This document shows, in pieces, positions 4,786 through 37,694 of a stretch of DNA of 44,390 bases. The notes beneath the pieces were generated by a model. It made no database searches. It had not been told where the DNA came from and worked only from the letters and a program-made list of their open reading frames with translations. The position numbers were made by a program, and so were the translations under genes. Position 1 is the stretch's first letter, and every line of letters begins with the position of its first letter. The DNA lies in the IMG/VR virus record IMGVR_UViG_3300034102_001960, positions 1 to 44,390 of that record; one strand, 5' to 3'. This DNA is from a virus.

Positions 4786-5016
4786 TTGCTTAACTTAACC
4801 GAACTAGGCGTAGATGTTTTTATAAAAAGATCTAACTCTAAAAATGTTAAATCTTTCTGGGACAATTACTCTTTAATAATCTGGAAAAAAAATAGTTCTG
4901 GGTTTACAAATAAAAACGGTCTATTTAAAAATGAGTGGGGAATTGCAGAAAAAATTGCAATTAACAATGATGGGCTATGGAAGCTCCCAACACAATATGT
5001 CAAAAATTTTAAATAG
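4786..5016 (+). CDS. hypothetical protein
   Basis: 76 residues from a TTG start with CAGGAAG six bases upstream. Lys/Asn-rich, with several Trp residues (NYSLIIWKKNSSGF). No recognised family. Its end overlaps the start region of the WhiB gene. Confidence 0.55.
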   Translation: MLNLTELGVDVFIKRSNSKNVKSFWDNYSLIIWKKNSSGFTNKNGLFKNEWGIAEKIAINNDGLWKLPTQYVKNFK

Positions 5017-5305
5017 TTTAGGAATAGACAAAGACCTACTTCAATGGCAGGACCTAGCACTATGTCTTGGCATGGACACCAACCTATTTTTTGATTCATA
5101 CGAAACAGATGTTAACATAGCCAAAAGTATTGATCAGGCATGCATGTCTTGTCCTGTAATAGCCATGTGTTATAAGTATGGAGTTGAGTCAGATAACTAC
5201 GGAGTTTGGGGCGGAGTTTATTTAAGTTCTGGCACACCAGATAAATCAAAAAATGCACACAAAACAAAAGATATAAACAAAAAAATAAAGGGATTACATG
5301 GCTAA
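4997..5305 (+). CDS. WhiB-like Fe-S transcription regulator
   Basis: About 102 residues from ATG 4997; the frame stays open back to 4931. It has the WhiB pattern of four Cys (C, then CMSC, then MCYKYG) and the GVWGG turn that follows the cluster-binding part in Wbl proteins. Wbl proteins carry an O2/NO-sensitive [4Fe-4S] cluster, bind the primary sigma factor, and are restricted to actinobacteria and their phages. The basic tail (KSKNAHKTKD...KKIKG) fits DNA contact. It could reprogram host sigma-factor promoters here. Confidence 0.88.
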   Translation: MSKILNSLGIDKDLLQWQDLALCLGMDTNLFFDSYETDVNIAKSIDQACMSCPVIAMCYKYGVESDNYGVWGGVYLSSGTPDKSKNAHKTKDINKKIKGLHG

Positions 5306-26392: not shown

Positions 26393-26696
26393 CTTCCTCC
26401 TCTTCATCATCCTCAAACATTGTGTCTACAATGTAGTCCCTGCTTAACATCCAGTCTTGTACTTCTTCTTGGTGCTGTTCCGCCCCGTACTCCAGAGAGA
26501 AGCCCTGGCCAGCCTCCACAGCCTCGCAGAGGTGGTCCCACATCTGATCTTGTGTAACCTTAACCTTGTATGTCTCGTCTTCCATTATGTTATTAATAGT
26601 CGACCATGTCCATAGCCATACCATGGATAACCCAAGGTCGGTTGTATCAAGAATCTTTAAACATTCGTTTAGTTTATCTTTATCATCAGGCTTCAT
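26379..26696 (-). CDS. hypothetical protein with acidic tail
   Basis: 105 residues from ATG 26696, preceded by GGAG at good distance. Trp-rich core (LSMVWLWTWSTINNI), then an all-Asp/Glu tail. The acidic tail could mimic DNA. No family recognised. Confidence 0.65.
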   Translation of the reverse strand: MKPDDKDKLNECLKILDTTDLGLSMVWLWTWSTINNIMEDETYKVKVTQDQMWDHLCEAVEAGQGFSLEYGAEQHQEEVQDWMLSRDYIVDTMFEDDEEEEDEDE

Positions 26697-26964
26697 TACG
26701 TGCTCCAATCGCAAACGATAAATCATATGTTAGTTTATACAGTTCAACTAGAGTATCTAGTCGTCCCTCTGCCTTTGTACGTTCCATTGAATCCATTGCT
26801 TCTTCGGTCTCATTTTCAATTGATTGAGCCCAAGCCAATTTCTCTTCGGCAATCAGCATTAGATTTTTTAGTTCGCCGTGCATTATATCTAATCCATTAA
26901 CACCTGCGTCAACTAAACGCTGGAGGTGCGAAGGAAGTTCATCATCCTTATATAGAGTTTTCAT
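26686..26964 (-). CDS. hypothetical helical protein
   Basis: 92 residues, Leu/Glu-rich coiled-coil-like. Overlaps neighbours on both sides by 4-11 bases. Function unknown. Confidence 0.68.
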   Translation of the reverse strand: MKTLYKDDELPSHLQRLVDAGVNGLDIMHGELKNLMLIAEEKLAWAQSIENETEEAMDSMERTKAEGRLDTLVELYKLTYDLSFAIGARNEA

Positions 26965-27146
26965 CCATAGACCCTTTCGTTAGAATTATTCATTATATCA
27001 GTTGCCACTGACAACAAATGTTCTGTAGCCATAATTTGTCCTTGAATATTAATCTTAGATTGAACATTATAATCACCCTCTAAGTCCTGGTTAAGACTAA
27101 TTAGATATATCTTCATATACTCTAAGAAATAAGATGACTTACTCAT
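26961..27146 (-). CDS. hypothetical small protein
   Basis: 61 residues from ATG 27146, with AAAGGAG upstream; a longer open frame to 27242 lacks a site. Helical (SYFLEYMKIYLISLNQDLEG). Confidence 0.65.
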   Translation of the reverse strand: MSKSSYFLEYMKIYLISLNQDLEGDYNVQSKINIQGQIMATEHLLSVATDIMNNSNERVYG

Positions 27147-27264
27147 ATTGATACTCCTTTGTTTCTCTATTGTAATATCTAACCATAGAGCATTTGCAGG
27201 TAAAAATTCCTGGGGTATCTGAACACTCCCAGTAATGGTCACATTTGGCCCCTATATTAGTCAA
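27139..27264 (-). CDS. zinc-finger-like microprotein
   Basis: 41 residues from TTG 27264 with GGAGGG five bases upstream. Cys/His pattern C-H-C-CxC (AKCDHYWECSDTPGIFTCKCS). Overlaps both neighbours by 8 bases. Confidence 0.55.
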   Translation of the reverse strand: MTNIGAKCDHYWECSDTPGIFTCKCSMVRYYNRETKEYQYE

Positions 27265-27430
27265 AGTATCCCTCCGCCCATAGGCCTTGCATAAAACTAA
27301 CAGCGTCTTCTAGGTCTTTCCTCAAAGGCTCCTTGTCCATTAGATCGGACGGGGTCCTAAGATAAAAAAGCTTTGCGTCATGTACAGCATTAGTCATTCT
27401 ATTTAAATCATCTAATGTATAACCTAGCAT
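27257..27430 (-). CDS. hypothetical helical microprotein
   Basis: 57 residues (MLGYTLDDLNRMTNAVHDAKLFYLR...). Overlaps the stop of the preceding gene by 7 bases. Function unknown. Confidence 0.62.
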   Translation of the reverse strand: MLGYTLDDLNRMTNAVHDAKLFYLRTPSDLMDKEPLRKDLEDAVSFMQGLWAEGYFD

Positions 27431-27642
27431 AAGTAGTAATCATCTCCTTCGGTATATCCATAGAAATCATTATATTGTTTCTTTAAATCAGGGGAAGCAT
27501 ATGACATGAATTCATATTCAGCATAATCTTCACCTTCATCTAAACATGCATTAGACCAATTTTCAAATAGGTCTTCGCTAATTTCTTGTATCATTGCACC
27601 TGTAATGTGCTCTGCTACCGTATCTATAAATTGTCCAGCCAT
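27424..27642 (-). CDS. hypothetical acidic protein
   Basis: 72 residues from ATG 27642, chosen for AAAGGCGGAGG just upstream. Acidic, Tyr-rich C-terminus (YGYTEGDDYYLC). Function unknown. Confidence 0.66.
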   Translation of the reverse strand: MAGQFIDTVAEHITGAMIQEISEDLFENWSNACLDEGEDYAEYEFMSYASPDLKKQYNDFYGYTEGDDYYLC

Positions 27643-28400
27643 TATACCTCCGCCTTTTCTGTAGTGTCCAATAGTACCATGTGGGTCTGACATTCTGCCA
27701 TAGCCTCTTCATCTTTCCAAGAGCCATGATTACAAGATGAGCAGAACTCCCCACATTCATCTTCGCAATAACTTAATGTGTCGTAAGAATCACAGGCGTA
27801 GCAACGGTTCTCATATTCTAATAGTTCTTTTACTTCACCACGGACAATCTCATATTCCCCACCCCAACCTGTTTCTTCCTCAAATTCTAATGTAAGTAAA
27901 GAGTTAGGAACAAGTAATGATAGTTTAGTTAAGATAGTTACAGCAGGAGACCATGCAGTATTATATTTATATACTAGCCAGTTATCATCACCTTTTGATT
28001 CATATTCAAGCAACTCAGTATCAGGATACTTATCACCGTCTGATACGGCTACATCCCATTTGGTTCCCCAATTAGATGTATTCCATGAATACCAATCTTT
28101 CTGAGTTTTAGCAAAAGCAACAGACTTAGCAAACCAATCAGGGTCATTTGTATCAACACCTGAACGGTCAGGTTGCTGAACATATTCTTCCATTGTGATA
28201 CCGTCTTCTAATGGAGAGTGGATATTCCAAAAAGAAAAAACAGGAGCGGAATAAACAGATTCAGTTACTTCCATAGCACCAGTCTTCATATTCCAACTAT
28301 CATGTAATACCTTATATGGCTGATTCAACTTATCTTTAATTGAATCTATCTCATTCTTTGGACCTTGTATGGTCAATGTGTTATATACCCAATTTGGCAT
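27642..28400 (-). CDS. Api92/DUF1281-like protein with C-terminal Cys cluster
   Basis: 252 residues. MPNWVYNTLTIQGP is the characteristic start of the ferredoxin-like Api92/DUF1281 phage and plasmid family. Central Trp-rich region (WYSWNTSNWGTKWDV). The C-terminal 60 residues carry a CYAC, CEDEC, CSSC zinc-binding cluster. First gene of an eight-gene unit under a TGTCRG-type promoter. Confidence 0.72.
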   Translation of the reverse strand: MPNWVYNTLTIQGPKNEIDSIKDKLNQPYKVLHDSWNMKTGAMEVTESVYSAPVFSFWNIHSPLEDGITMEEYVQQPDRSGVDTNDPDWFAKSVAFAKTQKDWYSWNTSNWGTKWDVAVSDGDKYPDTELLEYESKGDDNWLVYKYNTAWSPAVTILTKLSLLVPNSLLTLEFEEETGWGGEYEIVRGEVKELLEYENRCYACDSYDTLSYCEDECGEFCSSCNHGSWKDEEAMAECQTHMVLLDTTEKAEV

Positions 28401-28427
28401 ATTATATCCTTTCGTTGATATGGATTA

Positions 28428-28449
28428 ATTGTAACATCACCCACTGACA
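28428..28449 (-). promoter_or_regulatory. TGTCRG-type promoter (gene at 28400)
   Basis: Minus strand TGTCAG (28444-28449), exactly 10 bases, TACAAT (28428-28433). Leader contains AACGAAAGG. Confidence 0.75.
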
Positions 28450-28693
28450 TTGTATATAGGATATAGGTGTGTTTCACACCACATTTTCCAAGCTATGTGG
28501 TTAACATCACAAAATTCCAGGGCTTTTAATATTGTTTCCGTAAACAAAATATGATACCCTAACTCTTGCGGGCCGATCACGATTTGTCAAGTAGCTTCTA
28601 CGGGCTGCTAGAGGTTCACCAACGAAAGTAAAAGAACTCTGCTTTATTTAACCCCTGGCCTCAAGAGACTATAGGGGCACCCTAATAGATTAA
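28450..28693. other. intergenic region with dispersed repeat
   Basis: No gene seen. Holds AATTCCAGGG (28513-28522), a CTTGCGGGC piece and TTTGTCAAG, all members of the dispersed family. A weak CCCCT/AGGGG hairpin near 28650 may end the unit to its right. Confidence 0.6.
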
Positions 28694-29095
28694 TTATACC
28701 GTGGCCCTTGCATATTTATTAACAAATGAATCTAATGTCATTGTAAACATTGGTTCATCCTGCATTCCACGGACCTTACACTCTGTCGATTCGGACCATG
28801 GAGCCTCTTCGTGTAAAGAGAATGTTCCAGTAGACCAATCAATCAGAGGAATTTTGTGCTCATTGTCTAGGATACTATTAACGGTTAATCCCCAGCCTGT
28901 TGTCTCATGCCATTGGTCCCCAACTAAATGTGAGACCACAATACGTGTGGCATATGATTCATCTTTCCAGCGAGATCTTGCTGCTTCTACAGCGCTTGCT
29001 AGATTACCAAGCATGTCATGGCCTGCCCAGTGTCCATACAGCATAATTGTTTCTCCGCTGGATTGTCTAAATCCGAAGTTTGCTCTGTCGCCCAT
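28694..29095 (-). CDS. conserved phage protein (MGDRANFGFRQ type)
   Basis: 133 residues. Begins MGDRANFGFRQSSGETIMLYGHWAGHDM, a start I recognise from phage hypothetical proteins with a conserved GHWAG core. AAAGGCGG ribosome binding site inside the end of the upstream gene. Function unknown. Confidence 0.72.
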   Translation of the reverse strand: MGDRANFGFRQSSGETIMLYGHWAGHDMLGNLASAVEAARSRWKDESYATRIVVSHLVGDQWHETTGWGLTVNSILDNEHKIPLIDWSTGTFSLHEEAPWSESTECKVRGMQDEPMFTMTLDSFVNKYARATV

Positions 29096-29096
29096 T

Positions 29097-29285
29097 TTAT
29101 TCCGCCTTTACTAGTTGTTGTTTTTGCTCGTAGTTGAGTAATTGTACCATTTCTTGGGCCCAGTCCACAAGTGACTCTCCCTGTGAATTTTTGTGGTGTC
29201 CGCAAAAATAAAGAGATAGTTCATCTTTCTTTGCTTCCCACATTGCTTGAGCTGCACATTGATCACACTTAAGCCATTCAGCCAT
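29097..29285 (-). CDS. DUF7455-like zinc protein
   Basis: 62 residues. KCDQCAAQAMWEAK...LYFCGHH has the CDxCxAxA...FCGHH layout of small actinobacterial zinc proteins. Coupled to both neighbours. Confidence 0.68.
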   Translation of the reverse strand: MAEWLKCDQCAAQAMWEAKKDELSLYFCGHHKNSQGESLVDWAQEMVQLLNYEQKQQLVKAE

Positions 29286-29431
29286 CACAGTTTGCCACCT
29301 TCCATCATTTCTGAAAGACGGTCAAGAATCCAAGAGTCTATGTCTGTGATATCAATCTCTGATAACTTTTCAATAATTTCTTCACGAGCAAATTTATACC
29401 CGTCATTAAAACCATCTTTGTAATCTGACAT
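29285..29431 (-). CDS. hypothetical acidic microprotein
   Basis: 48 residues from ATG 29431, preceded by CAGGGAGA. Helical and acidic (DGFNDGYKFAREEIIEKL). Confidence 0.62.
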   Translation of the reverse strand: MSDYKDGFNDGYKFAREEIIEKLSEIDITDIDSWILDRLSEMMEGGKL

Positions 29432-29432
29432 A

Positions 29433-29645
29433 TTATCTCCCTGTGTATCCTGTTGGCTCGTATTCTGATGTATAACTTTCAATTAAGTTATGTTTATCTC
29501 GAATGCGACTTACCTTCTCAATACTACCAGTTCCGACATTGAAAGTCAACGCAGACAATACTTGTGGGTCTAATCCCAATATTTGTGCATCCCAATAAGC
29601 CATCTCGAAAGATAACTTATCAGGAGCAGTCAACTCAAAATACAT
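29433..29645 (-). CDS. hypothetical protein
   Basis: 70 residues from ATG 29645 (TAATG overlap with the upstream stop, GGAG five bases away). Mixed alpha/beta; ends in a Tyr-rich ESYTSEYEPTGYTGR. Function unknown. Confidence 0.62.
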   Translation of the reverse strand: MYFELTAPDKLSFEMAYWDAQILGLDPQVLSALTFNVGTGSIEKVSRIRDKHNLIESYTSEYEPTGYTGR

Positions 29646-30274
29646 TAGCACTCCCTAACATATGAAACTTCAGTGTCACCAATTTCAATGTTGCCACTTT
29701 GTGAATCAACATAAAGATTTTCCATAATTTCTGTTTCAAGGTCATAGTCTTCTGTGAGACTTAGGTCAATTGTTCCACTGACCTCAATAGTTGCAGTCCA
29801 CTCAATTGATTTAGTTAATTCAATATCAAGCGCTTCTGCAATTAATGCAAGAGTTTCTTGGTCACCCGAATCAGTATATGCTTCAAGTATAATATCTTTT
29901 ACTGTATCAATCTTAGATTGAAGAGTATTTACAGTTTTCTGTGATTGACGTCCATTGTGTAGGTCCCATTCAATTGATGTAACCTTATCAGTTGCATATT
30001 CTGCATCTGAATATCCACGGATAACTTTATAGGTTACCAATAGATTAGGGTTATATGATTCAGGAACTGCAGGTGTTACTGTAGCGCCGTAGTTTGTATC
30101 TTCCATTTTATCCTCTTTCGTTTGGTTGGGTTGTATTGTAGCATCTTGCACTGACAATAAGGTGGACCGTATAAAACAGTGTGAAATATTTGTAGCTTCT
30201 CCTTTTCGTGTTACCTCAATCAAGGCATCACAATTGGTGCAAAGGTACGTATCCTTAAACCATTTGTCAGTCAT
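29645..30274 (-). CDS. hypothetical protein with possible long and short forms
   Basis: Frame open for 209 residues from a leaderless ATG at 30274, and 153 residues from an internal ATG at 30106. The N-terminal extension has CTNCDALIE, a zinc-ribbon half. The internal ATG has its own TGTCRG promoter (30135-30156) and an AACGAAAGAGGA ribosome binding site. The shared part is acidic and beta-rich (DLSLTEDYDLETEIMENLYVDSQSGNIEIGD). Function unknown. Confidence 0.62.
   Translation of the reverse strand: MTDKWFKDTYLCTNCDALIEVTRKGEATNISHCFIRSTLLSVQDATIQPNQTKEDKMEDTNYGATVTPAVPESYNPNLLVTYKVIRGYSDAEYATDKVTSIEWDLHNGRQSQKTVNTLQSKIDTVKDIILEAYTDSGDQETLALIAEALDIELTKSIEWTATIEVSGTIDLSLTEDYDLETEIMENLYVDSQSGNIEIGDTEVSYVREC
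30135..30156 (-). promoter_or_regulatory. internal TGTCRG-type promoter
   Basis: Minus strand TGTCAG (30151-30156), 10 bases, TACAAT (30135-30140), inside the open frame that begins at 30274. Confidence 0.7.
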
Positions 30275-30280
30275 GTGAGT

Positions 30281-30302
30281 ATTATAGCGAACCCAACTGA
30301 CA
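30281..30302 (-). promoter_or_regulatory. TGTCRG-type leaderless promoter (gene at 30274)
   Basis: Minus strand TGTCAG (30297-30302), 10 bases, TATAAT (30281-30286), which ends six bases before the ATG. Confidence 0.72.
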
Positions 30303-30391
30303 TTTACAATAGATTCCAGGGGATTTTTTATGTGACCCTTAACACACTTTTCCGTCCCTTAACACTGCGGGCATCTCATATTTTGAGATTG

Positions 30392-30464
30392 CGATTCGTA
30401 TGGGATTTGAACCCACGATCTCTACCGTGACAGGGTAGCGCTTTAACCGCTAAGCTAACGAACC
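30392..30464 (-). tRNA. tRNA-Asp (anticodon GTC)
   Basis: 73 bases, canonical: acceptor GGTTCGT/ACGAATC, D stem GCTT/AAGC, anticodon stem CTACC/GGTAG with loop CTGTCAC, T arm GTGGG-TTCAAAT-CCCAT, discriminator G, no CCA. It lies directly downstream of the DUF932 terminator on the same strand; no separate promoter is clear. Confidence 0.95.
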
Positions 30465-30497
30465 AAATAAAAACGGGGGAGATTTTATTCTCCCCCG
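30465..30497 (-). terminator. terminator of the DUF932 gene
   Basis: Minus strand CGGGGGAG and CTCCCCCG stem, short AT loop, then GTTTTTATTT. Textbook rho-independent terminator, ending at the tRNA 5' end. Confidence 0.92.
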
Positions 30498-30512
30498 CTA
30501 GTTAGCATTTAT

Positions 30513-31520
30513 TTAAAATGCTTTTACTAACTTGAGAATTTTATTTTTCTCAGCAGTAAGAATTGGGTCAAAGCCTGAAGCACCAGCCATTAGTGTTTCA
30601 GAATTGCCACGACCTGAACGGAAATAATCAAGACGCTCAGTTAGTGCATTAAACGCACCCCACTTTGTTCCCTTGATTGTAGCGTTAGTTGGTGAGTTAT
30701 GATAAAGGTCATCAAGCAGAACAACCTTATTCTCCCATTTAGTTAGCGCAACTTTTGCTGCATCTTTGTCTGGCTTAGGATAAATTGTTTGAATCAATTT
30801 AGAAAATTCAGCATCAGTAATTGCCTGAGCAAATAAAGCCTTAGCCTCAATTTCAAATTCATCAAAGTAACCTAGAGCAAGCCCAAGAGTTTCACGAGCA
30901 ACCTGAATGCGACCTTCAACAGATTGTGTGTGACGAATCTTGAATGATTGCTTAGCATTCTTCATCGCAAGATTAAGAGTGTTTTGGCATACAACACGAA
31001 CAGGAGTAACGGCTGCTTGAACGGCAACAGAACCATCGTGTGAAGTCCATACAATTAAGTATAGTTTTGTTTGGTCATTAGCGCCTTGTGGGTCTAATAC
31101 CATTGTGCGTGGAATATCTACAGTTCCAAATACTACTTTACCCTTTTTTAGTGAGCCAGCAGATTCCCAACGGCAATCGGCGTTAGCATCGTGAATTGCA
31201 TCTGCAAATTGAAATAACTCTTCATTTTGCACAGGCTTGTAACGCTTGCCAACAGTTGCGAGAACATCAGTTCCACCATTGAATGGATTTGTGCGTAACA
31301 CTAAAGAAGCATCAGATACATCTTTAAATGATTCTGGGATATATTCAGTAATTGGAGATAAGCGAACATTCCAATTTGCTAACTTTGCCTCTTCAAGCAT
31401 TGTAGCGGTTGTAACTTCTTCATCTTTTGTGAAGATGCGGTTTGCAAGGTTGTGCCAAGCAGGAGCGCCACGAAGAGCGAAAGCAACTTCGCCATTTTCG
31501 ATTTCGAGATTATGAGCCAT
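30513..31520 (-). CDS. DUF932 phage/plasmid-like protein
   Basis: 335 residues, full length. MAHNLEIENG...FALRGAPAWHNL, GKRYKPVQNEELFQFADAI, AAVTPVRVVCQNTLNLA and the C-terminal NATIKGTKWGAFNALTERLDYFRSGRG match the DUF932 family (TIGR03299 type), found on phages and plasmids, role unknown. Monocistronic, between a TGTCRG promoter and a strong terminator. Codon use suggests high expression. Confidence 0.9.
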   Translation of the reverse strand: MAHNLEIENGEVAFALRGAPAWHNLANRIFTKDEEVTTATMLEEAKLANWNVRLSPITEYIPESFKDVSDASLVLRTNPFNGGTDVLATVGKRYKPVQNEELFQFADAIHDANADCRWESAGSLKKGKVVFGTVDIPRTMVLDPQGANDQTKLYLIVWTSHDGSVAVQAAVTPVRVVCQNTLNLAMKNAKQSFKIRHTQSVEGRIQVARETLGLALGYFDEFEIEAKALFAQAITDAEFSKLIQTIYPKPDKDAAKVALTKWENKVVLLDDLYHNSPTNATIKGTKWGAFNALTERLDYFRSGRGNSETLMAGASGFDPILTAEKNKILKLVKAF

Positions 31521-31548
31521 TTTTTACCTTTCGTTTGTTGTTAGATTT

Positions 31549-31570
31549 ATTATAACAGGTGGCACTGACA
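31549..31570 (-). promoter_or_regulatory. TGTCRG-type promoter (DUF932 gene)
   Basis: Minus strand TGTCAG (31565-31570), 10 bases, TATAAT (31549-31554). A TAGACA lies 17 bases upstream of the -10. Leader contains AACGAAAGG. Confidence 0.78.
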
Positions 31571-31625
31571 TTGTCTAGGATTAGTTATAATATGTCCGAA
31601 TTGTGCGGTGTGAGTAATCTCACAG

Positions 31626-31684
31626 AATTCCAGGGATATCCACAGCCTCACTTAAAACTGTGGATAACCCCGCAGCTCTGCGGG
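31626..31684. repeat. dispersed intergenic module B
   Basis: AATTCCAGGG (31626-31635), TGTGGATAA (31659-31667) and the hairpin CCCCGCAGCTCTGCGGG (31668-31684). Same parts in the same order as the module at 33679. Confidence 0.75.
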
Positions 31685-31731
31685 CAAATTAAGGGAAATA
31701 GGGCGGGGAAATAGATAAGCCCGCCCTAAGA

Positions 31732-31965
31732 TTATTTACAGAGAGACTTTACGTAATTAACTGTTTCCATAGGAAAGAATGCTGCAGAAGTTTTCTTTTT
31801 GTTTTGTTGATCAAATACAAAAGCTTTAACATTTCCATCAAATCGTTTTAGATTTGAGAACACGAGTTCTTTTAGACTTTCGTTATCGTATCCTTCGTCT
31901 GAATAAATCGTTAAATCATTTGCCTTTACTTCATCATACATTTCTATCTTAAATCTGTTTAGCAT
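31732..31965 (-). CDS. hypothetical protein
   Basis: 77 residues. Alpha/beta (MLNRFKIEMYDEVKANDLTIYSDEGYDNESLKELVFSNL); basic QQNKKKTS stretch. Own promoter. Function unknown. Confidence 0.7.
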   Translation of the reverse strand: MLNRFKIEMYDEVKANDLTIYSDEGYDNESLKELVFSNLKRFDGNVKAFVFDQQNKKKTSAAFFPMETVNYVKSLCK

Positions 31966-31994
31966 TTGTATTACCTTTGTTAGTAGGGATAAAA

Positions 31995-32023
31995 ATTATA
32001 CCATAAGGGGTGGGTGTTGTCTA
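31995..32023 (-). promoter_or_regulatory. minus-strand promoter inside a terminator hairpin
   Basis: TAGACA (32018-32023), 17-base spacer, TATAAT (31995-32000) on the minus strand. The -35 lies in the loop of the hairpin at 32003-32045. Confidence 0.72.
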
Positions 32024-32045
32024 TCGCCCACGCACCCACCCTTAT
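32003..32045 (-). terminator. terminator of the coiled-coil gene
   Basis: Arms ATAAGGGGTGGGTG and CACCCACCCTTAT (13 bp with one bulged G), 11 bases past the stop at 32056. Confidence 0.75.
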
Positions 32046-32055
32046 GATTATCTAA

Positions 32056-32478
32056 TTAGAGATAACGAGCAATAGCGTTGTAAGTGCTTGTGCTTACTGT
32101 GTCCTCATCGGTCATTTTGAGAATACGGATAGCATTTTCCATTTCCTCTTTCATTTCACGATAAGTATGAGCATGTAGTTGCTCAAAATCTCTTTGAGGC
32201 TCAGCAGGGAACTCACCATCTTTTACTGTTAGGTCAAAATCTACATTGAGATTTTTTGTCCACTCACGATAATTGGTGCGTAGGTTTTCTGCCTTTGAGA
32301 TGTTGGCGATAGCATAAGAGAAAAGTTCCTTTTTCCATTTCTCAATAGATTTTTGGAACTTTGCTTCGTTTTCATCTTGCTTTTTATAGTCAGCCTCTAA
32401 TTTGGCTAATCTTGTTTCTAAGGCTTTGATAACCTTAGTAGTAGCGATTTTTACCTGTATTGCTTTGCCTCTTGCCAT
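32056..32478 (-). CDS. coiled-coil protein of unknown function
   Basis: 140 residues. A basic N-terminus is followed by a long charged coiled coil (about 18-75), then an acidic FPAEPQRDFEQLHAH region and a terminal helix. CGAAAGGAAA ribosome binding site. No family recognised. Confidence 0.72.
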   Translation of the reverse strand: MARGKAIQVKIATTKVIKALETRLAKLEADYKKQDENEAKFQKSIEKWKKELFSYAIANISKAENLRTNYREWTKNLNVDFDLTVKDGEFPAEPQRDFEQLHAHTYREMKEEMENAIRILKMTDEDTVSTSTYNAIARYL

Positions 32479-32515
32479 TTGTGTTTCCTTTCGTTGGTTG
32501 GTTGTTGTTATGAGT

Positions 32516-32537
32516 ATTATAGCAGGAGGGTCTGACG
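32516..32537 (-). promoter_or_regulatory. TGTCRG-type promoter with its box in a hairpin loop
   Basis: Minus strand CGTCAG (32532-32537), 10 bases, TATAAT (32516-32521). The box is the loop of the perfect 11-bp hairpin at 32522-32547. Confidence 0.72.
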
Positions 32538-32547
32538 ACCCTCCTGC
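32522..32547 (-). terminator. hairpin terminator overlapping a promoter
   Basis: Perfect 11-bp arms GCAGGAGGGTC and GACCCTCCTGC with a 4-base loop, 10 bases past the stop at 32557. The -10 of the next gene follows immediately. Confidence 0.75.
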
Positions 32548-32556
32548 CCTAAATTA

Positions 32557-32736
32557 CTAGCCCAGTAGCGTTTTAGCGGATACTGAAGTCCAACGAGTTT
32601 CTTTCGTTGGCATTTCTAGTAGCACACGCACCGAGCCAGATGCCTGTGGGTGTATCTCTTTGATAACACCTGTTCTTTTTGACTTTAGGGTGGTGAATAA
32701 ATCGCCAACCTGATAGAGTTTTCCTTCTATTGTCAT
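32557..32736 (-). CDS. small beta-barrel-like protein
   Basis: 59 residues from ATG 32736 with AAAGAGG upstream. YQVGDLFTTLKSKRTGVIKEIH...VRVLLEM suggests an SH3-like barrel. Function unknown. Confidence 0.65.
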   Translation of the reverse strand: MTIEGKLYQVGDLFTTLKSKRTGVIKEIHPQASGSVRVLLEMPTKETRWTSVSAKTLLG

Positions 32737-32762
32737 TTTGCCTCTTTTCTTTGTTAGGTTGT

Positions 32763-32784
32763 ATTGTAGCATTGGGGTCTGACA
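32763..32784 (-). promoter_or_regulatory. TGTCRG-type promoter (gene at 32736)
   Basis: Minus strand TGTCAG (32779-32784), 10 bases, TACAAT (32763-32768). Confidence 0.75.
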
Positions 32785-32829
32785 TTAGTCTAGCCTTATC
32801 TCAGTATTTGAGAATATTAGTGTGTGATG

Positions 32830-33099
32830 CTAATCACTTTCAGGTAGCCAAAACTCTAAGTGGTGTTGGTCTATGATAGCGTGAGCGGGGGCTGTATCTA
32901 ATCCTTTATAAGATACGCCTTCAGGCATCTTTATCTGTCGATCAAAATCCTCATCATAGTATGCGTCAATAGCATCTATGCAAGGTTGCACCATAGATAT
33001 TGGAACGGGCGGGTAATGATTACCTTGTAAGTGATAGGCTAATTGTGTTTCTAAATCTAACACACTATCTTGTATTCCTAATGCAGTTATGCTTCCCAT
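32830..33099 (-). CDS. hypothetical protein
   Basis: 89 residues; follows the 33100-33375 gene with no gap. Asp/His-rich (DQHHLEFWLPESD at the end). Function unknown. Confidence 0.68.
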   Translation of the reverse strand: MGSITALGIQDSVLDLETQLAYHLQGNHYPPVPISMVQPCIDAIDAYYDEDFDRQIKMPEGVSYKGLDTAPAHAIIDQHHLEFWLPESD

Positions 33100-33375
33100 T
33101 TATTTATCCTCTTCTAGTATAGTTTCTGATAGGTTGTCCATTTCGTCTATTGTAGCGCATAGCACCGACATTTCCTCTTTGCTTAGGCAGACCTTAGTTA
33201 CTAGGTCGGCTACTTTGCTAGATAGGGCTGTGGAATACATAAATAAATACTTAGCAAAAGTTTCATCTGATAGTTCATTTCTGCGTTCATGGAGTTCGCC
33301 TGCTAATCCCATAATTTCATCGTCAAAAATACTATCTTTGGTTGCGTCAAGTATCCCGATAGCAGTTGCTAACAT
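33100..33375 (-). CDS. hypothetical helical protein
   Basis: 91 residues, acidic and helical. Overlaps the upstream stop (TAATG at 33375). Function unknown. Confidence 0.7.
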   Translation of the reverse strand: MLATAIGILDATKDSIFDDEIMGLAGELHERRNELSDETFAKYLFMYSTALSSKVADLVTKVCLSKEEMSVLCATIDEMDNLSETILEEDK

Positions 33376-33581
33376 TATTTCACAACCTTTAGTGTTGCAT
33401 AAGAGTTGCCTGCGTTTAGATTATCTATAAGTGGCATAATATCGGGAACGAGTAAAGTGTGTAGCATGCCTTCCAATAATTGTGCCTGCATATCTTTATC
33501 TAATTCTAGTAATCGTTGTGCGGTTGGGTTGGTCTCATCTAACTCTGTAATAAATCTAAGAGAGTGTTCTACTGTTTTCAT
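33375..33581 (-). CDS. hypothetical helical protein
   Basis: 68 residues (MKTVEHSLRFITELDETNPTAQRLLEL...). First gene of a three-gene unit; ACGAAAGG ribosome binding site. Confidence 0.7.
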   Translation of the reverse strand: MKTVEHSLRFITELDETNPTAQRLLELDKDMQAQLLEGMLHTLLVPDIMPLIDNLNAGNSYATLKVVK

Positions 33582-33608
33582 TTTAGCCTTTCGTTGTTGG
33601 ATAAGAGT

Positions 33609-33630
33609 ATTTTACCATTAGCCACCGACA
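33609..33630 (-). promoter_or_regulatory. TGTCRG-type promoter (gene at 33581)
   Basis: Minus strand TGTCGG (33625-33630), 10 bases, TAAAAT (33609-33614). Confidence 0.7.
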
Positions 33631-33678
33631 TCACCTAATCCATTATGGGCGTGTCTCAGCTTTTGTGATAATACTCAC

Positions 33679-33770
33679 AATTCCAGGGGTTGTGGATAAC
33701 CCTCATAACCCTGTGGATAACCCCGCAGATATGTGCGGGAGCTTGCTAATTTGTCAAGCCGACACGCCGT
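33679..33770. repeat. dispersed intergenic module C
   Basis: AATTCCAGGG (33679-33688), two TGTGGATAA boxes (33691-33699, 33712-33720), hairpin CCCCGCAGATATGTGCGGG (33721-33739), then TTGTCAAGCCGACACGCCGT ending at 33770. The last 20 bases recur exactly at 36200-36219. Confidence 0.78.
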
Positions 33771-33865
33771 TACAGCTTGGTTATTACATATGCGGCTAAT
33801 AAAATTGGCAGAATAGATATAAGAATCATCATTGATCCGCCAATAACACCAATCACCTCATACAT
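33770..33865 (-). CDS. single-helix membrane microprotein
   Basis: 31 residues, nearly all hydrophobic (MYEVIGVIGGSMMILISILPILLAAYVITKL). TAATG overlap with the gp88-like stop. Function unknown. Confidence 0.6.
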   Translation of the reverse strand: MYEVIGVIGGSMMILISILPILLAAYVITKL

Positions 33866-34617
33866 TATTTTTTACTCGCAGAAAATCTTATATCTGCTTT
33901 ACCATAAACACACAGGCCACATGATACACACGCACTGCCTGCGCTTGAGATAAGCGGAATACTTTTCATATTTTCAGGGCACTTAGCGCCAGGCTTACCC
34001 GTTAATTCTTTCATTGTATCTTCGGTAGCAGAAAATGTTTTTCCTAGATAGGCAAGCCGAATTTTAGAATTAGTTTTCAAATCGAATGCAATTTCTTTAT
34101 TCTCATCATCCGTTGAATAGTACAGTGATAGATTAGATATATCTTTTAGAATAAGCGCTGCGTCCTTGACACGTGTATACACCCAAAATTGAATATCTGA
34201 ATGCTTTTCAATAACAGTCTTCCACGCATATGTATAGGTATCGTTAAAAAAATCTCCGTCCCAGTGGATACGGAATAACTTAGGCGCATTTTTTTTATCA
34301 CAATCAGCAATAAAATCTATGATCATATCATCCAATAGGGCCACCATTGTGTCATTGTCCGCATTGCGTAACAATTCCCAATTGTGTAATAAGTTAGCCT
34401 TTACTGCTTTGTATAGTTTTTCAAGTTTCCCAGCGTAGCAAACAGTCTCACAGATAGACGTAGCACCAGGACATGAAAAATCTTTTCCTGCGGGTAATCC
34501 GAACGTGTTCGCAATTGCGGCTTGCTTTCCATTTTTTGTGACAAGGTTAGCCACCTTTCTATCATTAGATCTTTTTAATTTTACCATAGGGGCAATTATA
34601 TCGGTTAGGTCTGACAT
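33865..34617 (-). CDS. gp88-like protein
   Basis: 250 residues from ATG 34617 with GGGGGAT upstream. Family marks of mycobacteriophage gp88-type proteins: FSCPGATSICETVCYAGKL near residue 48, LFRIHWDGDFFNDTYTYAWKTVIEKH, FWVYTR, and a C-terminal CVSCGLCVYG cluster. The Cys arrangement suggests an Fe-S protein of TIM-barrel type; no reaction is known. Confidence 0.82.
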   Translation of the reverse strand: MSDLTDIIAPMVKLKRSNDRKVANLVTKNGKQAAIANTFGLPAGKDFSCPGATSICETVCYAGKLEKLYKAVKANLLHNWELLRNADNDTMVALLDDMIIDFIADCDKKNAPKLFRIHWDGDFFNDTYTYAWKTVIEKHSDIQFWVYTRVKDAALILKDISNLSLYYSTDDENKEIAFDLKTNSKIRLAYLGKTFSATEDTMKELTGKPGAKCPENMKSIPLISSAGSACVSCGLCVYGKADIRFSASKK

Positions 34618-34760
34618 TATAAATCCCCCATTTCTGCATCGGCCATGCGTGACATCATGCGCCACATATCTTGCTTAATAGCTTCATCGGATCCATAAAG
34701 AGATCCATCGCAATCATTCATTTCGTGCCCGCAGCATGGGAAGTCTTCGCATATATTCAT
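34617..34760 (-). CDS. zinc microprotein
   Basis: 47 residues from ATG 34760, with AACGAAAGG upstream. C-x5-CCGHEMNDC pattern, then a Met/Arg-rich helix. TAATG overlap with the gp88-like gene. Confidence 0.62.
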   Translation of the reverse strand: MNICEDFPCCGHEMNDCDGSLYGSDEAIKQDMWRMMSRMADAEMGDL

Positions 34761-34788
34761 AAGTTGACCTTTCGTTGGTTGAATTGAT

Positions 34789-34810
34789 AGTATATCAGGT
34801 CTGACTGACA
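34789..34810 (-). promoter_or_regulatory. TGTCRG-type promoter (gene at 34760)
   Basis: Minus strand TGTCAG (34805-34810), 10 bases, TATACT (34789-34794). Confidence 0.72.
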
Positions 34811-35036
34811 TTTATTACAAAACACCCCAGTTTTCAGGGTGTTTTTAATCACACTCTTAACGACACGCCCGACCCCGCACCTATGCGGGCGACACGCCCG
34901 ACTGCGTTGCAAGCTGCGACACGCCCGATATTATATTAGATCAGATTTTTTATGTTTTATTTTGCGTGTGTATTTTTTTTTATTGCGAACAGGTTGCGCC
35001 GCATTACTACGGCGCAATTCCTGAATTCGTTTTACT
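34811..35036. repeat. dispersed intergenic module D
   Basis: No gene. Three CGACACGCCCGA copies (about 34861, 34891, 34917), a CCCCGCACCTATGCGGG hairpin (about 34873-34889) and a separate 8-bp hairpin TTGCGCCG/CGGCGCAA (34994-35017). GC-rich islands in AT-rich DNA. Confidence 0.7.
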
Positions 35037-35228
35037 TTATTTTGAAGAGAAGTTAGGAACACGATACCCACTCGCTTTGTGAAATCTTGTTACATCAAAT
35101 CGCTCATTATCTTTCGCAAACATTTCTGCGAAATCATTTACGACTTTAGAAAAAACAGCAGGGTGAATTTTATTACTAGCATAATTTAGAATTTCAGCAG
35201 TAGCAATATAATCTTTACGGGTCATCAT
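35037..35228 (-). CDS. hypothetical protein
   Basis: 63 residues (62 if the second Met is used). MTRKDYIATAEILNYASNKIHPAVFSKVVNDFAEMFAKDN: small helical protein of a type seen in other phages. Overlaps the upstream stop. Confidence 0.7.
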   Translation of the reverse strand: MMTRKDYIATAEILNYASNKIHPAVFSKVVNDFAEMFAKDNERFDVTRFHKASGYRVPNFSSK

Positions 35229-35425
35229 TTCTGCGACACCAATCCAATCCGATTAAAGTTTTTAGTATACATTTTGCCCGTTGGCAAAGATAAATTATAT
35301 GTTGCGAATTCGTTAGCAAATCCGACATCATAACATTTTGCGAAAGCCTCAAACGCTTGTAAAGCGTCAGCGAATTTGTGTGTGTATTCTAATTGTCCGT
35401 CATAGTAAGTATCTAGTCTATACAT
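35225..35425 (-). CDS. hypothetical protein
   Basis: 66 residues from ATG 35425 (TAATG overlap with the upstream stop). MYRLDTYYDGQLEYTHKFADALQAFEAF. Function unknown. Confidence 0.66.
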   Translation of the reverse strand: MYRLDTYYDGQLEYTHKFADALQAFEAFAKCYDVGFANEFATYNLSLPTGKMYTKNFNRIGLVSQK

Positions 35426-35556
35426 TAGAAACCCCATGTTTCTTTAACGCAATCGCAACTTTCAACATCATAATTCTTTTCATCACCAAAGAATACGAAG
35501 CCAGCACCGCCACACTCATCACAAGCGACCCCGATTATTTCTGCTAGATTTCCCAT
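35425..35556 (-). CDS. zinc microprotein
   Basis: 43 residues: CDECGGAGFV and CDC (DnaJ-like Cys-Gly spacing). First gene of a three-gene unit. Confidence 0.62.
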   Translation of the reverse strand: MGNLAEIIGVACDECGGAGFVFFGDEKNYDVESCDCVKETWGF

Positions 35557-35591
35557 TTATAGTTTTCCTTTCGTAGTTTGTTATTGGTTAA

Positions 35592-35613
35592 ATTATAGCC
35601 TAAGCCACCGACA
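35592..35613 (-). promoter_or_regulatory. TGTCRG-type promoter (gene at 35556)
   Basis: Minus strand TGTCGG (35608-35613), 10 bases, TATAAT (35592-35597); leader has ACGAAAGGAAAA. Confidence 0.78.
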
Positions 35614-35632
35614 ATTTCGGGAAAGACACGCC

Positions 35633-35755
35633 CTAGAGCGCACCTTCCTGAAATAATCCGATTTCTAAATCTAACATTTCTGCGGGTGTTGCTTCGGATA
35701 AATCTACCCAGCCAGCACCCTCATCATTTATTCTAAAGATTTCTACATATCCCAT
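35633..35755 (-). CDS. hypothetical acidic microprotein
   Basis: 40 residues (MGYVEIFRINDEGAGWVDLSEATPAEM...). Starts directly after the upstream stop. Function unknown. Confidence 0.6.
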   Translation of the reverse strand: MGYVEIFRINDEGAGWVDLSEATPAEMLDLEIGLFQEGAL

Positions 35756-35953
35756 TTATTCACCTACCTTAACCGCAATTATGCGATAGTGGTCTTTATA
35801 AGAATGCGGTGTGCGAATTAAAACACGATACGCTTCTTTATCATTACCAAACCAATGGTCGGTTTTTTCACCGCTAATAATTTCTCCATTAAGAGAATTA
35901 GAGCGATATTGCTTACCTTGTAAAAGGTTTTCTATTGTGTATAAGTTAGCCAT
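35756..35953 (-). CDS. small beta-rich protein
   Basis: 65 residues from ATG 35953 with CGAAAGGAAG upstream. GKQYRSNSLNGEIISGEKTDHWFGNDKEAYRVLIRT. Function unknown. Confidence 0.66.
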   Translation of the reverse strand: MANLYTIENLLQGKQYRSNSLNGEIISGEKTDHWFGNDKEAYRVLIRTPHSYKDHYRIIAVKVGE

Positions 35954-35982
35954 TGTTAGCCACTTCCTTTCGTTATACCGCA

Positions 35983-36004
35983 ATTATAGCGGAAGCCACC
36001 GACA
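35983..36004 (-). promoter_or_regulatory. TGTCRG-type promoter (gene at 35953)
   Basis: Minus strand TGTCGG (35999-36004), 10 bases, TATAAT (35983-35988). Confidence 0.78.
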
Positions 36005-36079
36005 ATTCTCTACTTACTAGCCAGTAATTCCACATTTTGAGACGCTCAAGTCATGTGTTCTTAATCACATTAGGGCTGT

Positions 36080-36219
36080 GGACGACACGCCCGACACGCC
36101 ACGACACGCCCGAAAGTTATCCACAAAATCCAGGGTGATTTATATCACCCCCTTAACGACACGCCCGACCCCGTAGCTATGTGGGGGATCGGCTCGATTT
36201 TGTCAAGCCGACACGCCGT
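36080..36219. repeat. dispersed intergenic module E
   Basis: Three GACACGCC-type copies, perfect DnaA box TTATCCACA (36117-36125), AATCCAGGG (about 36127), CTTAACGACACGCCCGACCC (about 36151), a CCCCGTAGCTATGTGGGGG hairpin and TTGTCAAGCCGACACGCCGT (36200-36219). Confidence 0.78.
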
Positions 36220-36318
36220 CTATTCTTTGTGAGTTTGCTCACATACGCATTTAGTATATGCGCCCGCATTTAACCTGCCACAATTAGGGCAGGTATAAAA
36301 TCCGCTAGGGTTAGCCAT
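36220..36318 (-). CDS. zinc-ribbon microprotein
   Basis: 32 residues: YTCPNCGRLNAGAYTKCVCEQ, a minimal four-Cys ribbon. Function unknown. Confidence 0.62.
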   Translation of the reverse strand: MANPSGFYTCPNCGRLNAGAYTKCVCEQTHKE

Positions 36319-36471
36319 TTATTTATCTCTCCTAAGTAATGCGATAGAATAAATAAAACCAATAGAGCCAACTAGTAGCCATGTCGGGATATCTATACCG
36401 ACACCATTAGGCCATAGCCCGTTAATGTATAGAGAAAAGTATTCGCTATCTAATAACAATTCTAAGTTCAT
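36319..36471 (-). CDS. small membrane protein
   Basis: 50 residues: acidic N-terminus outside, one helix (WLLVGSIGFIYSIALL), RRDK end. TAATG overlap with the upstream stop. Confidence 0.6.
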   Translation of the reverse strand: MNLELLLDSEYFSLYINGLWPNGVGIDIPTWLLVGSIGFIYSIALLRRDK

Positions 36472-36644
36472 TATTCGTATGCCTCCCAATCTAATGTTAA
36501 TTCTTTCTCGATTATTTCATCAAGGCTAACGATATCGCTATCGCTAATCGCCTCAGCGTTAATCTTATCTAACGCCTCTTCTTCATCTAGATAGACATAA
36601 GCGTCTGCTATATCCGCTTGGATAGTATCCCATTTAGTCATCAT
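36471..36644 (-). CDS. acidic hypothetical protein
   Basis: 57 residues, highly acidic and helical (VYLDEEEALDKINAEAISDSDIVSLDEIIEKE). TAATG-coupled on both sides. Confidence 0.62.
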   Translation of the reverse strand: MMTKWDTIQADIADAYVYLDEEEALDKINAEAISDSDIVSLDEIIEKELTLDWEAYE

Positions 36645-36805
36645 TAGTTATTCACCTGCTCTATCTTGTGTATTAGGTATTCGAATTTTAACGGAGGGTT
36701 TGCCTCGTTTAATTCATTAACTAGAGCGATAATTTCTTTAATGCTCTTAGCGGTTAGTGTGCCCTTCTGTAAAGAGCCTTGCCAAATTGAGTAGGTTAGT
36801 TTCAT
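36644..36805 (-). CDS. hypothetical protein
   Basis: 53 residues (MKLTYSIWQGSLQKGTLTAKSIKEIIALVNELNEANPP...). Overlaps neighbours at both ends. Function unknown. Confidence 0.62.
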   Translation of the reverse strand: MKLTYSIWQGSLQKGTLTAKSIKEIIALVNELNEANPPLKFEYLIHKIEQVNN

Positions 36806-36918
36806 TAGTTATTACCTCCATTAACAATAGCACCGACAATAGCAATTATAGTTATCGTGCCTAACACGATAGGCAAAACAATGTGAGGATAATCCTCTAC
36901 CCAATCAAAAAATAACAT
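36805..36918 (-). CDS. single-helix membrane microprotein
   Basis: 37 residues; hydrophobic core HIVLPIVLGTITIIAIVGAIV. Coupled on both sides. Confidence 0.6.
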   Translation of the reverse strand: MLFFDWVEDYPHIVLPIVLGTITIIAIVGAIVNGGNN

Positions 36919-37010
36919 TAGTTAGCCTCGCTCTCGTCTATGTCGAACATTTCAGCAAACACTTTGTTTGCTTGTTGTAAGGCCTCTAGTGCCTCGTTTA
37001 GTTTATCCAT
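36918..37010 (-). CDS. acidic microprotein
   Basis: 30 residues (MDKLNEALEALQQANKVFAEMFDI...), one amphipathic helix. First gene of a six-gene unit. AGAAGGA ribosome binding site. Confidence 0.58.
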   Translation of the reverse strand: MDKLNEALEALQQANKVFAEMFDIDESEAN

Positions 37011-37047
37011 TTTCTGTCCTTCTTTCGTTAGTTTGTTTATTAAGGTA

Positions 37048-37075
37048 AGACTATCATTAGCAACCGACATTATCA
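37048..37075 (-). promoter_or_regulatory. TGTCRG-type promoter (gene at 37010)
   Basis: Minus strand TTGATA, then TGTCGG (37064-37069) within a 17-base spacer, then TAGTCT (37048-37053). Box-to-(-10) distance is again 10. A GCGACA/TGTCGC hairpin lies just upstream. Confidence 0.6.
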
Positions 37076-37091
37076 AGCGACACGCTGTCGC

Positions 37092-37241
37092 CTATTCTGT
37101 GACCTTAGTCACAGTAGGGAGAGAGATTAAGTAGCGTAGCAATACCTTACGCTCATAGGTAGTTAATTCGGGGTGATTAGAAACCACGCCACCATTTTGG
37201 TATTCCCAAACAATTTTATTAAAAGTTTTTTCGGATAACAT
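37092..37241 (-). CDS. hypothetical protein
   Basis: 49 residues from ATG 37241 (TAATG overlap). MLSEKTFNKIVWEYQNGGVVSNHPELTTYERKVLLRYL; possibly a small helix-turn-helix-like protein. Function unknown. Confidence 0.62.
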   Translation of the reverse strand: MLSEKTFNKIVWEYQNGGVVSNHPELTTYERKVLLRYLISLPTVTKVTE

Positions 37242-37423
37242 TACATCACCCAACTTTCCTGAGTGTAAGATAACCACTCACCAAGGGTCATTAAGCCCTT
37301 GTATTCTTTACATTTACCGCAAAACATTTCGCTTGCGTAGTCTGAGCAGAAAGCGCAGACAATTAGATTAGCCTCATCGGCTCGGACATTAGAGAGAGTA
37401 ATCTCTCGGATTAGTGTAGTCAT
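37241..37423 (-). CDS. zinc-ribbon protein
   Basis: 60 residues: CAFC and CGKC (VCAFCSDYASEMFCGKCKEYKGLMTLGEW). Function unknown. Confidence 0.68.
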   Translation of the reverse strand: MTTLIREITLSNVRADEANLIVCAFCSDYASEMFCGKCKEYKGLMTLGEWLSYTQESWVM

Positions 37424-37480
37424 TTTAACTACCTTTCTTAGTAAGACTTTCTTACTTTCTTTATACTATAATCCTAGCAG

Positions 37481-37502
37481 GGGGGTCTGACATTTAGGGG
37501 GG
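37481..37502 (-). promoter_or_regulatory. TGTCRG-type promoter (gene at 37423)
   Basis: Minus strand TGTCAG (37497-37502), 10 bases, TAGGAT (37481-37486). A TATAGT follows seven bases further on. Confidence 0.6.
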
Positions 37503-37694
37503 TTACTCGCTAGTATTCACAAACTATTTTTGTGAGTTACACCACACTCACGCTCAAGGTCATTTATATATGTGCGGACTATATAGACAAAACGGACATC
37601 TGAAATACGTGTATCATACAAATTAAAAATTTATTAACATTTTGATAAATCTTAAATAGTAGTCAACTAAAATCTATACTGGTATAATTAATAA
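37503..37694. promoter_or_regulatory. divergent intergenic region with plus-strand promoter
   Basis: Contains a CACAAA/TTTGTG hairpin (about 37520-37540), the TAGTCAACTA element (37660-37669) and TATAAT (37683-37688) six bases before ATG 37695. The TAGTCA end of the element sits at the -35 position (17 bases). Confidence 0.6.

Follow-up and report, generated by a model that had tools for sequence, protein, structure and literature searches.

PafBC-type promoters with helically phased CRP/GlxR-type sites precede an accessory gene block in phages that probably infect freshwater Actinomycetota

The viral record IMGVR_UViG_3300034102_001960 (44,390 nt, analysed whole and called the window hereafter) carries a block of small genes, about 11 kb in length and opposite in strand to most of the phage genome. 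An original prediction, made from the letters alone, had described twelve minus-strand promoters in this block, each with a TGTCRG box exactly 10 nt from the −10 element, and had proposed a dedicated control system in which an activator or sigma-modifying factor, for example the WhiB protein of the phage, could touch the polymerase within the spacer. When sites were counted by pattern on both strands, TGTCRG-N10-TANNNT occurred 15 times on the minus strand, always within 27013–37492, and the plus strand had two copies, as against a mean of 0.08 and a maximum of 1 in 500 dinucleotide shuffles of the promoter region. At spacings of 0–30 other than 10, never more than two TGTCRG/TANNNT pairs were present in that region. 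A variant box, CGTCAG at 32537, brings the minus-strand total to 16 promoters.

Along the minus strand, on which all of the following sites lie, promoters assigned below to the PafBC type stand ahead of the genes starting at 37423 (TGTCAG-N10-TAGGAT, 37471–37492), 37010 (TGTCGG-N10-TAGTCT, 37048–37069), 35953 (TGTCGG-N10-TATAAT, 35983–36004), 35556 (TGTCGG-N10-TATAAT, 35592–35613), 34760 (TGTCAG-N10-TATACT, 34789–34810), 33581 (TGTCGG-N10-TAAAAT, 33609–33630), 32736 (TGTCAG-N10-TACAAT, 32763–32784), 30106 (TGTCAG-N10-TACAAT, 30135–30156) and 28400 (TGTCAG-N10-TACAAT, 28428–28449), ahead of a DUF932 gene at 30513–31520 (TGTCAG-N10-TATAAT, 31549–31570) and before a leaderless start at 30274 (TGTCAG-N10-TATAAT, 30281–30302), while the variant box (CGTCAG-N10-TATAAT, 32516–32537) precedes the gene starting at 32478. 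These are the twelve sites of the original prediction, all of which were found in their places on re-reading; four more had been overlooked. One of them (TGTCAG-N10-TATAAT, 34595–34616, also seen in relatives) belongs, almost without a leader, to the GP88 family gene (PF17338; 33865–34665), and another (TGTCAG-N10-TATAAT, 26992–27013) lies ahead of the gene 26686–26964 and has a homologue, TGTCAGTGGCNACTGATATAAT, that recurs in many relatives. The other two are possible promoters, TGTCAG-N10-TACTAT (27671–27692) ahead of an ATG near 27641 and TGTCGG-N10-TACAAT (33149–33170) inside the gene 33100–33375. The −10 element is weak in 2 of the 16 sites (TAGTCT at 37069 and TAGGAT at 37492), and a Pfam search with ten small genes behind these promoters gave no match.

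Eighty related viral loci were obtained by a GP88-based search. They held 454 distinct TGTCRG-Nd-TANAAT sites with d = 10, and the other values of d from 4 to 24 together accounted for 23, so the box is far from equally frequent at other distances; almost all sites with d = 10 shared the strand of the GP88 gene. The spacing was also recovered independently of the box: among 292 distinct TAYAAT elements with the ribosome-binding string AACGAAAG no more than 40 nt downstream, exactly 10 nt upstream there was TGTCRG in 270 and CGTCAG in 2. The logo of 154 non-redundant sites reads AAWTGTCRGTSS-N4-YTGC-TATAAT and continues into an A-rich leader. The GC remarked on earlier before the −10 is properly an extended −10 element, TGC-TATAAT (T in 63% and G in 81% of sites at −15 and −14), and the −35 element, first described as mostly absent, is absent on the whole, since none could be found in this logo, where information at −36 to −30 was at most 0.26 bits per column. 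In full-length relatives (110–116 kb) the sites form one block, with only 1–3 per genome elsewhere, two of which are located within whiB or next to it and look like coding coincidences; the window is thus probably a fragment of a genome of about 110 kb. When TTGTCRGTG-N8-TATAAT was sought in 2.9 million viral contigs, at least 120 loci matched, and 100 among the 120 listed belonged to the same phage group, nearly all others being single matches.

Promoters of the mycobacterial LexA-independent DNA-damage response (RecA-NDp/P1) have the consensus tTGTCRgtg - 8 nt - TannnT (PMC5656591), which is equivalent to TGTCRG-N10-TANNNT because its TG and the 8 nt together make a fixed 10 nt. At such promoters, which have no −35, PafBC bound to single-stranded DNA (ssDNA) lets RNA polymerase (RNAP) with sigmaA start transcription via a −26 motif, a mechanism termed sigma adaptation, the helix-turn-helix (HTH) of PafB holding the −26 motif and that of PafC taking sigmaA domain 4 (PMC11804915). 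The phage sites agree with this consensus in box, spacing and −10 as well as in the missing −35, and this agreement very probably identifies the TGTCRG box as the −26 element through which PafBC acts.

The box could instead be the operator of a phage repressor, comparable to the asymmetric stoperators of L5-type phages, lying within strong extended −10 promoters; its 6-bp core is indeed asymmetric and present in many copies of one orientation, and GP88 is an L5 gene family. An operator, however, needs no lock on one distance from the −10, there is no −35 to account for basal activity, and 15 of the 23 minus-strand TGTCRG copies of the block sit in promoters. Stoperators of the L5 type read GGTGGMTGTCAAG and are scattered, also outside promoters. 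The flanks in the logo, AAWTGTCRGTSS, do not match them and are locked to the −10, so kinship with the stoperators was rejected and we regard an operator as extremely improbable.

The TGTCRG promoter motif was also present in chromosomes when 395 genomes of Actinomycetes were surveyed. In one set of chromosomes (L132–L145), several PafBC-type promoters each stood ahead of near-identical long genes, which were taken for 13E12-type repeats; the −10 was followed by a leaderless CGAACACATG that hardly varied. In three others (L146, L147 and L148), PafBC promoters (TGTCRGTGNTCGAACRTATAAT and similar) led, with no leader, into the gene of a short protein that has a WYL-like domain, which suggests a small relay under PafBC control.

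The initial picture of a single element missed a second conserved one, the palindrome TGTGA-N6-TCACA, which lies upstream of 108 of the 181 non-redundant promoters (about 60%), compared with 4% in shuffled upstream sequence and 9% at random positions of the same loci. With the −10 hexamer set at −12 to −7, its centres fall near −54.5, −64.5, −74.5 and −84.5, and the Rayleigh score is highest (Z 57) for a period close to 10.3 bp, a phasing expected of an activator that must face RNA polymerase. Of 497 distinct sites in the relatives with at least 9 of 10 matches, 449 were no more than 110 bp away from a TGTCRG promoter, and several of the others adjoin a degenerate box; five complete genomes had 8–15 such sites beside these promoters and 0–3 outside the block. 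Going by its consensus, the palindrome is a site of the CRP/GlxR type.

In the window, such sites occur on the minus strand at 37531–37546 (TGTGGTGTAACTCACA, centre −74.5), 37098–37113 (TGTGACTAAGGTCACA, −64.5), 36054–36069 (TGTGATTAAGAACACA, −85.5), 32823–32838 (AGTGATTAGCATCACA, −74.5), 31609–31624 (TGTGAGATTACTCACA, −74.5), 30331–30346 (TGTGTTAAGGGTCACA, −64.5) and 28496–28511 (TGTGATGTTAACCACA, −82.5), together with one out of the main phase at 33664–33679 (TGTGAGTATTATCACA, −69.5) and a CRP/GlxR-like one with 8 of 10 matches at 34838–34853 (TGTGATTAAAAACACC, −63.5); the promoter of the gene starting at 35556 has none. Being palindromic and situated in intergenic gaps, they might be hairpins or terminators of the upstream genes rather than regulatory sites, but their phasing at about 10 bp relative to the downstream −10, the nearly invariant half-sites around a degenerate middle and the proximity of 90% of them (≤ 110 bp) to a PafBC-type promoter make this unlikely. 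Directly upstream of the palindrome, CCCTGGAATT is often seen (28520–33700, minus strand, e.g., at 33690, 31640 and 28530).

Candidate hosts were drawn from a class-wide sample of Actinomycetes as small genomes (1.2–1.5 Mb) chosen on size and G+C, the latter being 0.42–0.48 in most stretches read from them. The host is probably a freshwater actinomycetotan, and probably one of the 'Ca. Nanopelagicales', which are suggested by the genome size and G+C of the candidates. Two adjacent WYL genes were found in 33 of 37 such genomes; in the one genome whose pair was compared with solved structures, only PafB and PafC chains matched (7p5x, 9fnd and 6sj9), so that the tandem WYL genes of the presumed hosts would provide PafB and PafC. 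In all six candidate hosts checked, the region upstream of recA contained a TTGTCAGTGGCGCCTGCTACCTT-type promoter beside an SOS box, reading TTGTCAGTG-N8-TACCTT with TGC or TGA before the −10. One strong Crp protein was present in each of 16 of 16 candidate hosts, and the one compared matched CRP of M. tuberculosis (3d0s, E 4e-77), the recognition helix, VGASRETVNKALADF, being identical in both.

The pafB-pafC pair of two candidate hosts (L163 and L173) directly follows an apparent tRNA (adenine-58) methyltransferase gene with no proteasome or pafA genes in between, which looks like a loss of the Pup-proteasome genes with retention of pafBC. A phage-like contig of 4.7 kb in a candidate host (G586:C161) combines a CRP-type site with an extended −10 but lacks the box. 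The first cultured phages of 'Ca. Nanopelagicales' are of a different family, with genomes of about 39 kb (PMC10202952).

Readers encoded by the phages were sought in eleven sequences, i.e., ten related records of 97–116 kb and the window, and no WYL protein, no sigma-70 region 2 and no Crp HTH was found (0 of 11 each). A phage sigma factor, a phage PafBC and a phage Crp were accordingly rejected as readers of the box or the palindrome; for factors like MotA and AsiA of phage T4, the result is limited to the lack of sigma, WYL and Crp domains in these eleven sequences, as no search aimed at MotA or AsiA was made. Most phage genes are unassigned, and the T4 middle promoters prove that such an architecture exists in phages, so one could think of an unrecognised sigma-appropriating pair that took over the PafBC site or arrived at it by convergence. 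Since the box agrees exactly with the host motif, no new phage factor is needed, and with the domains named above missing from the phages we consider such a pair very unlikely.

The WhiB gene (4931–5305, plus strand) has a counterpart in each of the ten related records of at least 97 kb, and WhiB proteins bind sigmaA domain 4, both of which would suit a WhiB that reads TGTCRG from there and activates the block. Homologous WhiB (46–51% identity over 95% of its length), GP88, DUF932 and the small-gene block are, however, also found in Streptomyces phages of the Stanwilliamsviridae (LukeCage, Muntaha and Naboo), whose block promoters are of the ordinary TTGACA-N17-TANNNT kind (TTGACN-N16-18-TANNNT), with neither a TGTCRG-N10 array nor phased CRP sites. 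WhiB is thus kept where the box is not, instead of the two being kept and lost together, which argues against it as the reader, and a reader of the box is already known and occurs in the candidate hosts; this role for WhiB is highly improbable.

The accessory block is very probably a phage regulon driven by PafBC and CRP/GlxR of the host. The proposal of a dedicated control system has therefore stood, and a factor in the spacer that modifies promoter recognition by sigma was the right class of mechanism, although its attribution to the phage is unlikely to be correct. The phage would have copied a host promoter design some 15–17 times, and these copies would drive the small genes of the block. 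During infection, ssDNA would arise from replication or from attack on the host DNA and be bound by host PafBC through its WYL domains; the HTH of PafB could then hold TGTCRG while that of PafC takes sigmaA domain 4, and host RNAP-sigmaA would start at the extended −10 promoters in spite of the missing −35. At about 60% of the promoters, host CRP/GlxR bound to TGTGA-N6-TCACA further upstream may help recruitment, most likely through a class I contact with the alpha-CTD of RNAP. In this way the GP88 and DUF932 genes and many unassigned small proteins would be delegated to two host sensors, and, ssDNA being the trigger of PafBC, the genes of the block would be switched on once ssDNA is formed by the phage or the host suffers damage. 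The virus appears to read the alarm signals of its host. We also incline to the view that the promoters, at least 15 of them, are gates for the two sensors (ssDNA or damage, and cAMP) operating with no phage activator, and that they would form the first known viral regulon based on sigma adaptation by a host WYL protein.

Several observations weigh against this explanation. Only some 50% of the phage sites have the consensus G at −21, and C is the base in most others. Class I CRP sites of E. coli are centred at −61.5, −71.5 and −82.5, so the centres at −64.5, −74.5 and −84.5 are about 3 bp off and the contact may differ; PafBC might, speculatively, cause this offset by changing the path of the upstream DNA. 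As for the host, a search of genomes with the phage WhiB gave only relatives of 33–40% identity from other Actinomycetes, and a fragment of a GP88 relative was found in only 1 of 296 genomes of the candidate order.

Compared with the RecA-NDp/P1 promoters known from mycobacteria and further actinobacteria, including that of recA in the candidate hosts, the phage promoters are alike in motif, spacing, missing −35 and a factor acting in the spacer, but they occur in 15–17 copies within about 11 kb, drive small phage genes instead of DNA repair, have a strong extended −10 with G or C second after the box, and are often accompanied by a phased CRP/GlxR site. Control of the block by LexA was rejected, no SOS box (CGAAC-N4-GTTCG) being present in 1.69 Mb of phage sequence. 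The T4 middle promoters (MotA box plus AsiA) likewise define a class of phage genes in which an activator box replaces the −35 and sigma domain 4 is diverted; T4 encodes both factors, whereas here they are apparently those of the host, and sequence, position and spacing of the box differ. With class I CRP promoters and the GlxR regulon, the phage sites share TGTGA-N6-TCACA at helical steps and a host Crp with the helix of M. tuberculosis CRP, but the palindrome is offset by about 3 bp from the E. coli positions and is paired with a PafBC-type core and not with a weak −35.

Virulent phages usually rely on strong ordinary early promoters or on an activator of their own. In the literature covered, which did not include subscription papers, we found no paper on PafBC-type promoters in a phage and no GlxR paper on phage promoters. 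The kind of promoter is known; what appears to be new is a phage regulon that employs it together with phased CRP sites. A widespread group of freshwater actinophages has apparently handed an accessory regulon to the SOS-independent DNA-damage pathway of its host, with CRP/GlxR as a co-input. This suggests that PafBC and CRP act as host factors when bacteria that are among the most abundant in freshwater are infected, and it makes hundreds of natural variants of the PafBC promoter available for the dissection of sigma adaptation.

Some further features of the block were noted. A tRNA-Asp gene lies inside it (30391–30464, minus strand), and three other tRNA genes are scattered through the structural region. 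Perfect DnaA-box-like TTATCCACA strings cluster upstream of some promoters (33691–33720, 31659–31667 and 36117–36125, minus strand); in most full-length relatives four of the 8–10 such strings per genome are within the block, and an origin or control by DnaA is possible. The repeated strings GGCGTGTCG and GGGCGTGTCG occupy gene gaps of the block (36091–36230, 34870–34930 and 33755–33765, minus strand), partly alternating with short inverted repeats.

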